A stretch of 64,000 nucleotides of DNA from an uncultured Roseburia sp. (GTDB taxonomy: Bacteria > Bacillota > Clostridia > Lachnospirales > Lachnospiraceae), in the NCBI GenBank assembly GCA_945787015.1, contig CALZGM010000009.1, forward strand, positions 38,896-102,895, in the 5' to 3' direction. Shown here piece by piece: positions 17-11,756 of the stretch. Numbering within the stretch: position 1 is the first letter of the stretch; each line of letters begins with the position of its first letter. Below the pieces are notes generated by a model. It searched no databases. It worked only from the letters and a program-made list of their open reading frames with translations, and was not told the DNA's origin. Both the position numbers and the translations under genes were made by a program.

Positions 17-637
17 TTAGCTGCCAAAAAGTTGTGAATCTATTTTTGATAAAACGGTTGCAGGGAAAAGAGATTTTGTTAATTGTAAATCTTTTTTCTT
101 ATATGTTAACTGAGTATATTCTCGTTTGGTATTTTTCATTTTAAAAATAGCAAAAATTTTTCCGGGTGGGTACTGAGAGATATTTCGAATATCTTCACTC
201 AAAATAGTATTTGGTATGAAAAAATCGTTTTTTGAAATTAATCCGAGGCAAGCAGAGGTTGTTCCGGCTACTTTTTCAGTATAAAGCTCAAGATGTGGAC
301 CGGTATAGTTGCCTATCATACGGGCAGTTTGATCTATATTTACTATACTAGACAGAATCTTTAATTTTAATTCAGTGGTAAAAGGGCATTTAACAAAAAA
401 GTCATTCGGACTAAGCTTGTTATTTACTATTTTGTGATAAAATATATTTGCTGAAATTCCTGGACGTGGTACTAGACCTGTAAAGTGTAGAAAATTGTGA
501 GCACGGAAGCGAACTTCAGCAAATTCTACTTTGTTTTGTGCATTGTAATAGACAAACATAACTTGAGTGTTACAAAGATTTGTATCATATGTACAGGCGC
601 ACTTATGCACAATAGCAATAATTTCGTTTTTGGTCAT
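17..637 (-). CDS. Predicted PBECR4-type nuclease (candidate toxin)
   Basis: The 206-residue protein resembles, from memory of the family pattern, the PBECR4 domain (phage Barnase-EndoU-ColicinE5/D-RelE-like nuclease), a predicted RNase fold. The matching blocks are FLHFTGL near residue 49, a following AxxFYxKIxNxKLSxxDF stretch, ARMIGNY, LYTEK, ACLGL, and IPNTILSEDIR in the second half. It has no signal peptide or membrane segment, so it should be cytoplasmic. The ATG follows an AGGAG ribosome binding site. It is the only gene at this end of the window on the minus strand and is AT-richer than its neighbours. Upstream on the same strand lie a terminator-like hairpin, two tandem structured repeats and a promoter, an arrangement that suggests an RNA-controlled toxin. 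The family call is fairly good; the catalytic residues and the toxin role are inference. Confidence 0.62.
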   Translation of the reverse strand: MTKNEIIAIVHKCACTYDTNLCNTQVMFVYYNAQNKVEFAEVRFRAHNFLHFTGLVPRPGISANIFYHKIVNNKLSPNDFFVKCPFTTELKLKILSSIVNIDQTARMIGNYTGPHLELYTEKVAGTTSACLGLISKNDFFIPNTILSEDIRNISQYPPGKIFAIFKMKNTKREYTQLTYKKKDLQLTKSLFPATVLSKIDSQLFGS

Positions 638-670
638 GGGAAAACTCCTAATGATGTGAAATAGAATTTA

Positions 671-711
671 AAAGGAAGATTCACCCACCGCAGCGAATGT
701 AACCTTCCTTT
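671..711 (-). terminator. Terminator-like hairpin between the repeats and the nuclease gene
   Basis: Read on the minus strand, AAAGGAAG (711-704) pairs with CTTCCTTT (678-671). An inner ATTC/GAAT pairing (698-695 with 682-679) extends the stem. The 3' arm runs into only four T residues and then AAATTC, so termination would be leaky. It sits between the tandem repeats and the nuclease start, where type III toxin-antitoxin loci carry an attenuating terminator. Confidence 0.5.
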
Positions 712-720
712 CATGACTGA

Positions 721-820
721 TTTTTCTGTTGTCCGTCAACGAATCGGCACCCGTAGTCCGATAAGAATGCTGGTTTTTCTGTTGCCAGCCAACTGTTCAG
801 CACCCGTAGTCTGAGAAGAA
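721..820 (-). repeat. Two tandem 47-nt repeats with conserved hairpins
   Basis: Copies at 721-767 and 774-820 match at 38 of 47 positions, with a period of 53 nt. On the minus strand each copy can form a first hairpin with the invariant 12-nt core GACTACGGGTGC, and a second with stem GTTG/CAAC and a 5-nt loop, then AGAAAAA. One first-stem pair changes from G-C in one copy to A-U in the other, which is compensatory. Most other differences fall in loops or linkers. This points to selection on RNA structure. Confidence 0.85.
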
Positions 821-872
821 ATTCGGATTAATGTGTCAGCCCACAAATAGGCAATGCCTATCAACTACATAT

Positions 873-901
873 ATTATACATTTAAAAATTGAATTATGCA
901 A
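873..901 (-). promoter_or_regulatory. Predicted sigma-A promoter for the repeat RNA and nuclease
   Basis: On the minus strand a perfect TATAAT (878-873) lies 17 nt downstream of TTGCAT (901-896). The -35 box is weak but the spacing is ideal. The start point would be close to 866, just before the repeats. Confidence 0.6.
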
Positions 902-942
902 AGAGAAAAATGGGTTTGAAAAAAAGGGGGATTTTATAGATA

Positions 943-4627: not shown

Positions 4628-5392
4628 ATGAAGCATCTATACGGAGTAGAGACAAAGGAAGAATTGACTAAATATCAAAAATTTGTTGAGCGGATACAGC
4701 CCAGACTGGATGAATATCTTAAATTTCTTCAAACAGAATATGAAGTTCGTGACTTGCCAAGAACCATTTTGTGGACGGGAAAAGAAGCTGCGACAAGTCT
4801 GATTAGTGATATTCCGGTTCCGGCATATACCAATGAGTATCGTGTTGTTATGACGCCGGATATAGAAGCTTGGCGAAGTTTATACTTAAAACAATTGGAA
4901 GGTATAGAGAATCAGAAAGAAAACGAGGCGGCCCGCCAAAGCATTAAGGAATATTACCTTAAGGAACTGTCAGAAAACCATATCATGCAAATCCTTGGTC
5001 ATGAACTGGCACATCATAGCGAATGGTTCTTAGAGGATTTTGATTCGGCTCTTAGTGATGGTATTTGGTTTGAAGAGGGAATGGTTGAGTACATTAGCAG
5101 ACGCTATTTTTTGACAGAGGAAGAATTTGAACAGGAAGCATTTTATAATCAACAATTAGTAAACTTGTTGAAAGAAAAATATGGAACTCATTCGTTGGAG
5201 GAATTCGGACAGGCTACCTATGAAGGCGACTATGCAAGTATCTTTTTTGAATATTGGCGAAGCTTTCTGGCAGTCAAAAAAGTAATAGAAGATTATAATG
5301 GGAATATTCGGAAAGTTTTTCACTCCTATCATGAGTGGCATGAAAAAAATAACGGACAGACACTGGTAGAGTGGTTTCAGGTCTGTATCTAA
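4628..5392 (+). CDS. Putative zinc metallopeptidase-like protein
   Basis: The 254-residue protein contains an HExxH zinc motif, HELAHH, at about residues 125-130. A possible third ligand glutamate lies in WFEEGMVEYIS at about 147-157, as in gluzincins. The flanks are largely helical and no signal peptide or membrane segment is seen, so an exported protease is unlikely. It could be a cytoplasmic peptidase or a DUF-type zincin whose substrate is unknown. It sits between a broken acetyltransferase and a methyltransferase, which suggests a unit modifying or processing a peptide or drug, but this is only inference from neighbours. Confidence 0.6.
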   Translation: MKHLYGVETKEELTKYQKFVERIQPRLDEYLKFLQTEYEVRDLPRTILWTGKEAATSLISDIPVPAYTNEYRVVMTPDIEAWRSLYLKQLEGIENQKENEAARQSIKEYYLKELSENHIMQILGHELAHHSEWFLEDFDSALSDGIWFEEGMVEYISRRYFLTEEEFEQEAFYNQQLVNLLKEKYGTHSLEEFGQATYEGDYASIFFEYWRSFLAVKKVIEDYNGNIRKVFHSYHEWHEKNNGQTLVEWFQVCI

Positions 5393-11005: not shown

Positions 11006-11200
11006 ATGGAAGAATGGAATGAGTTAGATTCAATGTGTGGTATAACAGATGATGAATTAACAGAGCGATTTAAAGAAGCAGTTCGCATAGAGAACGAAGT
11101 AAAAAAAATAAAGGGTGTTCCGATTGCTGGTTATGATGAGGAGAAAAAAACTGCGTATTTAGAATATCCGGATGGAAGGAGAAAATATGCAGCAAAATGA
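11006..11200 (+). CDS. Small putative antitoxin of a zeta-type pair
   Basis: This 64-residue acidic protein (MEEWNELDSMCGITDDELTE start, ending YPDGRRKYAAK) has no recognised domain but resembles the small partners encoded just before zeta/PezT-like kinases. Its ATG at 11006 follows AGGAG. The longer frame from 10907 overlaps the previous gene and the promoter, so I rejected it. Its last 14 nt overlap the kinase gene, which gives translational coupling, as in toxin-antitoxin operons. By analogy it would bind and block the kinase. The role is inferred from position. Confidence 0.65.
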   Translation: MEEWNELDSMCGITDDELTERFKEAVRIENEVKKIKGVPIAGYDEEKKTAYLEYPDGRRKYAAK

Positions 11201-11756
11201 AAAGCGTCCGGAAATTATTGTGTTTGCAGGACCAAATGGAAGTGGAAAATCAACGGTTACTAAATTAGCGAAGGTAATTGAACCATATATAAATGCAGAT
11301 GATATAAAACGAACGAATTATTGTAGTGATTTAGAAGCGGCACAATGGGCAGAAAAAATGCGTGAAGAGGCACTGGAAAAGCACCAGAGTTTTACGTTTG
11401 AAACAGTTTTATCTACAGAGAGAAACCTTAAATTGCTACAAAGGGCAAAAGAAAAAGGATATTTTATTCGATGCATTTATGTCCTTACATCAGATGTAAA
11501 CATTAATATTTTTCGAGTAGAATCAAGAGAAGCAGCTGGTGGACATGGAGTTCCGGAAGACAAAATACGATCCCGATATAAAAAAGCATTGGCATTGGTG
11601 CCGGAGTTGGTTTCAGTATGTGATGTTATGCATATTTACGATAATACAAAGATTCCATTTCGTATTTTTAAGAAGCGTAAAACAGAAGTATTCTATTGGG
11701 AAAATGAGTTATGGAATAAAGAAAAGATTATGGAACTTGTAGGATGCAAGTTGTAG
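11187..11756 (+). CDS. Zeta-toxin-like P-loop kinase
   Basis: The 189-residue protein is a P-loop kinase of the zeta-toxin/COG4185 type. The Walker A motif GPNGSGKST lies at residues 15-23. It is followed by the INADDIKR block, the FETVLST segment after a helical linker, and a conserved arginine-rich segment (RVESREAAGGHGVPEDKIRSRY) that in this family contributes to ATP handling. Zeta toxins phosphorylate UDP-N-acetylglucosamine and poison wall synthesis; whether this one does is not proven. The start at 11187 has AAGGAG 6-7 nt upstream and lies inside the antitoxin gene. It is followed at once by the M28 peptidase gene. Confidence 0.8.
   Translation: MQQNEKRPEIIVFAGPNGSGKSTVTKLAKVIEPYINADDIKRTNYCSDLEAAQWAEKMREEALEKHQSFTFETVLSTERNLKLLQRAKEKGYFIRCIYVLTSDVNINIFRVESREAAGGHGVPEDKIRSRYKKALALVPELVSVCDVMHIYDNTKIPFRIFKKRKTEVFYWENELWNKEKIMELVGCKL

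Follow-up and report, generated by a model that had tools for sequence, protein, structure and literature searches.

A small locus on the minus strand of a 64,000-nucleotide stretch of DNA from an uncultured Roseburia sp. (contig CALZGM010000009.1 of assembly GCA_945787015.1, positions 38,896 to 102,895; hereafter, the window) places a structured, two-unit repeat RNA directly ahead of a gene for a predicted nuclease of the PBECR4 family. Our analysis suggests that the two constitute a type III-like toxin-antitoxin module, a reading we consider likely, and that the folded repeat RNA probably keeps the predicted RNA-cutting toxin in check. An initial annotation, made from the sequence alone, had proposed such a module with a new toxin. 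That proposal is now supported by the repeats of a homologous locus, by RNAs upstream of nearly all near-full-length PBECR4 genes, by covarying pseudoknots and by the tracking of toxin clades by RNA classes.

Type III loci are recognized by tandem RNA repeats and a terminator ahead of a toxin gene, by a pseudoknotted RNA and by an endoribonuclease as toxin (PMC5086642). Sequence reading and scans of the window gave this layout, with a promoter-like site, RNA repeats, a Rho-independent terminator-like hairpin and the toxin gene all co-oriented and a ribosome binding site before the gene, much as the initial annotation had described. The parts are listed here in the order of transcription; class A denotes the RNA class described by our covariance model R1.

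897 to 902, minus strand: -35-like hexamer TTTGCA (consensus scan)
873 to 878, minus strand: -10 hexamer TATAAT, spacer of 18 nucleotides (nt), from which a transcript would start near 866 (consensus scan)
847 to 861, minus strand: 5' leader hairpin ATAGGCATTGCCTAT (sequence reading and plain fold)
715 to 845, minus strand: two-unit repeat RNA of class A, predicted to be the antitoxin (model R1, 105 bits, and covariation)
664 to 710, minus strand: terminator-like hairpin with a weak U-tract, comprising a long hairpin at 672 to 710 (sequence, fold and a scan of the inner part)
645 to 649, minus strand: ribosome binding site AGGAG, preceding the ATG at 637 (sequence)
17 to 637, minus strand: PBECR4 nuclease gene, 206 amino acids, the predicted toxin (Pfam PF18813 and a model)

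The promoter-like sequence (902 to 873) agrees with the consensus at 10 of 12 positions; it is a consensus match, not a transcript, and the same 401-nt stretch holds six promoter-like sites where shuffled sequences lead one to expect 1.3. The terminator scan returned a single site, at 699 to 682 within the long hairpin, with 0.4 expected, and the hairpin as a whole may act as a leaky terminator. Class A relatives show by eye the identical order of promoter, RNA, terminator and toxin gene, along with hairpins akin to ATAGGCATTGCCTAT on the 5' side of the first hairpin of the RNA, H0.

The assignment of the gene to PBECR4 stands. Its product scores 111.9 bits against PF18813, for which the curated cut-off is 27 (E value 6.1e-32, residues 9 to 182), and the only other match in a Pfam scan to an E value of 10 was a sub-threshold one to a viral family. 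Pfam groups PBECR4 with predicted RNases. Searches of PADLOC and NCBIfam gave no match and PHROGs gave two weak ones. The toxin lacks a sequence match to ToxN or CptN: a profile of 45 PBECR4 proteins, run against the PDB sequences to an E value of 10, recovered two ribosomal proteins only and none of the solved ToxN or CptN proteins, a comparison that did not take in TenpN. His51 and Gly54 are invariant in all 45 proteins and position 144 is Ser or Thr in every one; these are candidate catalytic residues that may contribute to RNA cleavage. A further column, Lys or Arg in 43 of the 45, is Met in the window protein. The predicted structural model has a pLDDT (predicted local distance difference test) score of 96.7.

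Turning to the RNA, the two tandem repeats reported by the initial annotation are present, though with a period of 53 nt rather than 47: two direct repeats of 51 nt (717 to 767 and 770 to 820) are 80% identical, and the hairpins TCAG/CTGA and TCGG/CCGA of the two units do differ by a compensatory change, as had been noted. Model R1, constructed from 19 RNAs including that of the window, found 715 to 845 as its sole match in the 64 kb to an E value of 1, while Rfam gave no match to the window RNA to an E value of 5. A plain fold of the RNA alone, by a method that does not allow pseudoknots, yielded a modest z score of -1.83 against shuffles. The elements of the RNA, as placed by alignment and covariation, are the following.

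832 to 845, minus strand: hairpin H0, the loop of which (GGCTGA) pairs with the 3' end at 715 to 720 (alignment and covariation)
824 to 827, minus strand: segment S1 (TCCG), partner of the H2 loop in a reciprocal inter-unit pairing (covariation; pairing within the same unit is unsupported)
797 to 814, minus strand: variable hairpin of unit 1 (TCAG/CTGA), carrying GACTACGGGTGC (sequence)
781 to 793, minus strand: hairpin H1 of unit 1, GTTG-GCTGG-CAAC (alignment and covariation)
774 to 780, minus strand: A-rich linker of unit 1, a candidate processing site (conserved in alignment A2)
769 to 773, minus strand: segment S2 (CCAGC), partner of the H1 loop (covariation)
744 to 761, minus strand: variable hairpin of unit 2 (TCGG/CCGA) (sequence)
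728 to 740, minus strand: hairpin H2 of unit 2, GTTG-ACGGA-CAAC (alignment and covariation)
715 to 720, minus strand: 3' segment S0 (TCAGTC), partner of the H0 loop, closing the RNA (double changes in 5 of 6 pairs)

What is conserved across class A is a GUUG[N5]CAAC hairpin, an A-rich linker and segments of 4 to 6 nt that pair with the hairpin loops. The core GACTACGGGTGC, which the initial annotation took to be invariant, lies outside these parts in the loop of a variable hairpin and was rejected as a marker of the family: it reads GACTTCGGGTGC in L009, a homologous locus, and has other letters in other homologues. In the window genome the exact 12-nt core occurs in the two repeats only, with five one-mismatch single occurrences elsewhere (a reversed-pattern control gave 4). 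A blind stem test of the variable hairpins was uninformative, since at least 4 pairs could be formed in 37 of 38 units but also in 86% of shuffles.

The strongest evidence for a defined RNA architecture comes from covariation. Alignment A2 comprises 19 class A RNAs aligned by sequence alone; four variant or weak members of the class (L043, L046, L044 and L053) were left out. In two of these, L043 and L046, unit 1 appears by eye to have been swapped for a longer, different stretch, with H0, the last unit and S0 retained. Three pseudoknots run through the class, joining the H0 loop to the 3' end, the H1 loop to the segment between the units and the H2 loop to the segment before unit 1. Together they consist of standard pairs in 98.6% of 494 alignment cells (88.1% in shuffles), with double changes in 15 of 26 pairs and 51 double-changed cells against 11.8 in shuffles, a number reached in none of 500; the number of further pair types was not raised (66/500). 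Sliding the partners out of register lowered pairing to between 27 and 54%. Reciprocal pairing, S1 with H2 and S2 with H1, holds in 99.3% of cells with 31 double-changed cells, whereas the same-unit alternative, S1 with H1 and S2 with H2, reaches 73.7% with no covariation and was rejected; each unit is thus tied to the other. The antitoxin candidate of class A is accordingly predicted to form H-type pseudoknots, in which a hairpin loop pairs with a tail.

A second alignment (A4) of 13 RNAs, 12 of them outside the model, upheld this pairing, with 96.2% of cells paired and 35 double-changed cells (0/500 shuffles). It includes the RNA of the Erysipelothrix phage phi1605 (R1 score 69.9 bits), for which the accompanying PBECR4 protein is 35% identical and the gene, as recorded, is interrupted by an in-frame stop. 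Eight of its rows are solitary RNAs, found away from any PBECR4 gene; one of these, L137, seems to have decayed in both H1 and H2. Left out were L138, L140, the solitary L144 to L150 and L134 (G111:C7). The last, which neighbours a PBECR4 remnant, is of class A but has three units; the number of units varies.

The coupling of such RNAs to PBECR4 extends well beyond the window. One scan of the genome contigs returned two relatives, L009 and L010. The first, from a Blautia metagenome-assembled genome, encodes a protein 55% identical to that of the window and has two repeats, the hairpin and the gene arranged in the same way; repeats upstream of close homologues, on which the initial annotation had staked its proposal, are missing only at L010, a gene cut short, where no RNA was found in the 240 nt upstream. 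Of 397 genomes of the family, 72 carry PBECR4, against 4 of 398 genomes in a phylum-wide sample, the four including the window's own genome and one already known. We counted as near-full-length those genes with a profile match starting at or before position 10 and ending at position 145 of 184 or later in one frame, dropping L002 and L003 (the window's own locus again). An RNA lies directly upstream of 54 of the 56 genes so defined, 40 being recognized by model (one of them sub-threshold) and 14 by eye; the two others are the truncated L010 and the unclassified L071. L075 scores 37.8 bits for drum, short of the gathering score of 43. Another 24 PBECR4 loci are fragments or have later starts, 14 with an RNA and 10 without.

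These RNAs are not of one kind. The 54 divide into class A (19, by model R1), drum, which is Rfam RF02958 (21), and classes B (6), D (4), E (2) and F (2), the classes D, E and F having been grouped by eye, D loosely. Drum is the commonest class, present at 28 of the 80 PBECR4 loci tallied, and has the same place and layout as the window RNA, immediately ahead of PBECR4 genes that belong to another clade. The window RNA itself is not drum, for it has no RF02958 match and consists of two tandem units, whereas drum is one structure of about 112 nt without repeats. Tandem repeats are a feature of the window RNA, class A and class B. Those of class B measure 32 nt and form covarying H-type pseudoknots with A-rich linkers (11 units, 94.3% paired, 13 double-changed cells, 0/500). 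A tandem-repeat score of at least 15 was reached by 27 of 74 PBECR4 upstream stretches and by 6 of 144 upstream of other genes, and 4 of these 6 overlap, from their coordinates, the PBECR4 RNA of a divergent neighbour; drum loci, not being repeats, are missed by this score. Read by eye, the DNA ahead of other PBECR4 genes likewise holds promoter-like sequence, an RNA of structured appearance, a hairpin resembling a terminator and a ribosome binding site. Upstream of PBECR4 in L091 (2050 to 2300, minus strand) and in the Butyrivibrio plasmid L142 (2240 to 2480, plus strand), stretches that look structured and contain terminator-like hairpins are possibly further RNA classes.

The six RNA classes track the clades of the toxin. 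In a tree built from 58 PBECR4 proteins, a single branch sets each of drum, B, D, E and F apart from the rest, with support of 97/90 for drum and 100/100 for B; class A is not one clade and requires 3 changes. Eight labels placed on the tree require 7 changes, which is the minimum, against a mean of 30.3 when shuffled. The labels for A and drum came from models, and the remainder were read before the tree was made.

As the initial annotation had suggested, a covariance model was searched across the family, and R1 matched 43 places in 37 of the 397 genomes. Occurrence of the repeat widely away from such genes, which the annotation had named as a refutation, is seen in part within this one family: 27 of the 43 adjoin PBECR4 as a gene or a remnant, one further place (G302) is parted from a remnant by another gene, and 15 are solitary by profile searches of their flanks. 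Among the 27, the remnant at L138 depends on a weak profile match (E value 0.05) and reading by eye; of the solitary 15, seven score low or are variants (31 to 68 bits) and count as putative members of the class. Near one solitary RNA (L136, G311:C34), some 230 to 960 nt downstream of the RNA start, genes for a RelB/DinJ-like antitoxin and a PIN-like toxin can be seen by eye. A drum search of 200 genomes located 18 places in 16 genomes, 15 directly upstream of PBECR4 and three (L098, L099 and L104) without it. RNA without toxin is therefore not rare (15/43 for class A, 3/18 for drum), whereas near-full-length toxin without RNA is almost absent (2/56), which is the pattern of loss that an antidote predicts. 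It is this pattern, together with the type III criteria and the precedent of AbiF and its RNA (below), that leads us to regard a type III-like module as the likely identity of the locus.

A plasmid search with a drum-clade protein returned 22 records, 19 of them from Enterococcus; in each of five plasmid loci among these (four Enterococcus, one Streptococcus suis) drum lies directly upstream above its gathering score, although L160 resembles L161 and L162 resembles L164, so that the five amount to about three independent cases. In L162 (1978 to 2883, E. faecalis plasmid pEFM9-2) the drum-PBECR4 module adjoins a gene annotated as AbiH family. Drum also precedes PBECR4 in a genome of a different family of the phylum (L090). 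No relatives were found in viral contigs with three single-protein queries, in phages with a drum-clade query or in plasmids with a class B query. Modules occur in Lachnospiraceae genomes, on plasmids of Enterococcus and Streptococcus and in a phage of Erysipelothrix, a distribution that points to a role in phage defence or in the maintenance of mobile elements.

Could the RNA instead be a cis-acting leader, riboswitch-like or an attenuator, in which a signal sets read-through into the nuclease gene and the RNA has no direct action on the protein? Its position between promoter-like and terminator-like sequences of the same transcript would suit such a role, and the RNA of AbiF works partly in this way (PMC12373285). 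We nevertheless think it improbable, as RNA classes unlike in sequence stand before a single gene family and keep to its clades, and as class A RNAs persist in solitude, 8 of the 15 having been aligned within the well-paired second set and several being followed, by eye, by terminator-like hairpins. Slightly less credible again is the idea that the RNA serves as a guide, cofactor or recognition element of the nuclease in a defence ribonucleoprotein and is its working partner rather than its inhibitor. Close association, shared descent and the Pfam grouping with RNases would all accord with this, but no spacer-like guide segment was seen, the variable parts being by eye short hairpins, and solitary RNAs without a nuclease fit an antidote better than a cofactor. 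That the RNA is a separate small RNA or a selfish repeat, neighbouring these genes by chance, is very improbable: the places lacking PBECR4 nearby are what one would then expect, but the adjacency counts for class A, drum and the near-full-length genes speak otherwise, and the window's own genome carries this copy only.

Several points weaken the case for a type III-like module. Four of the RNA classes were assigned by eye. Fold searches with the predicted PBECR4 model gave no clear PDB match and do not bear out the statement of the initial annotation that the fold differs from that of ToxN; ToxN was not among the matches listed, which excludes nothing. An L. gasseri plasmid locus (one of three records), L142 and L091 have no R1 or Rfam match, and the sampled sequences are related to one another.

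In a simplified view of how a type III-like module would operate here, a single promoter would give rise to an abundant short RNA, ending mostly at the hairpin at 672 to 710, with some read-through supplying the PBECR4 mRNA. The two repeat units would fold with each hairpin loop pairing to the single-stranded segment of the other unit, and with the third loop pairing to the 3' end, to give a closed transcript with pseudo-twofold pseudoknots. This RNA would bind PBECR4, predicted to be a metal-independent endoribonuclease, and block its active site; each RNA would probably hold about two nuclease molecules, and cuts in the A-rich linkers may come first. Should the RNA level drop, as upon phage takeover or loss of the element, freed PBECR4 would cut RNA and growth would stop. 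Of this picture, the gene family, the layout, the RNA pairing with its conservation and the association with PBECR4 are backed by computation, and the remainder is predicted.

The predicted arrangement has precedents. With ToxIN, CptIN and TenpIN it shares a single promoter, tandem repeats and a terminator between RNA and toxin gene, as well as H-type pseudoknots with an A-rich stretch and a predicted endoribonuclease, and its two-unit RNA recalls the 2:2 ring of CptIN (PMC5086642, PMC4627078). The system described here differs from these in its toxin, which matches neither the solved ToxN and CptN proteins nor, above threshold, any Pfam family other than PBECR4, and in an RNA without an Rfam match, the units of which pair reciprocally and the third loop of which closes on the 3' end of its own transcript. 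Another precedent is AbiF (Abi_2), a non-ToxN toxin shown to be type III-like, for which a known Rfam motif upstream, RCd22 (RF03085), proved to be the RNA antitoxin; there too the toxin follows a structured RNA of two motifs and a terminator, with a SigA promoter (PMC12373285). AbiF, however, is Abi_2/Cas13-related where the window toxin is PBECR4, and the window has no RF03085 match. A deaminase serves as the toxin of AvcID, another type III system (PMC10511110).

PBECR nucleases have been described in polyvalent proteins of phages and mobile elements as a named group of predicted RNases, there as domains of large proteins or solo, whereas the window protein is a solo protein behind an RNA (PMC5512222); the available text of that paper lacks the terms pbecr4 and noncoding. 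Among the matches listed in a literature search that did not cover the paper defining drum, no report ties PBECR4 or drum to toxin-antitoxin systems. Within the portions available, PMC8040213 mentions only ToxN-linked RNAs, PMC11980606 contains no PBECR, PMC9403866 has PBECR3 only, and drum comes up in PMC11974997 and PMC7657543 only for a K-turn and a helix extension.

The stretch that holds the locus is variable. The neighbour of the locus on the opposite strand is a GNAT gene (943 to 2280), and a genome of the same genus encodes a GNAT homologue, 83% identical over residues 2 to 273, without PBECR4 and without the RNA. The DNA match there begins at window position 949, an R1 search of that locus gave no match, and the gene beyond the homologue resembles by eye one about 3 kb off in the window genome. 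Farther along lie a Zeta_toxin-family gene (11172 to 11756, plus strand; Pfam E value 7.9e-13), preceded by a 97-amino-acid open reading frame (ORF) without a Pfam match that could be its antitoxin, and a 254-amino-acid ORF (4628 to 5392, plus strand) with an HELAHH motif, metallopeptidase-like by eye and without a Pfam match at 0.001.

A broader proposal, to which we give somewhat less than an even chance, is that PBECR4 is the common toxin of a type III-like superfamily in which the RNA partner has been replaced or remodelled repeatedly, as a two-unit cyclic RNA in class A, as H-type repeats in class B, as drum and in other forms. The orphan family drum would then be an RNA antitoxin, class A a two-unit ring preassembled by reciprocal pairing within one transcript, and solitary RNAs antidotes against phage- or plasmid-borne PBECR4. 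If so, a new toxin family would be added to the type III toxin-antitoxin systems, and drum would gain a partner and a directly testable role. One nuclease family set against several RNA folds would also provide a natural series in which to study the recognition and silencing of an RNase by an RNA, and the co-evolution and replacement of such pairs.
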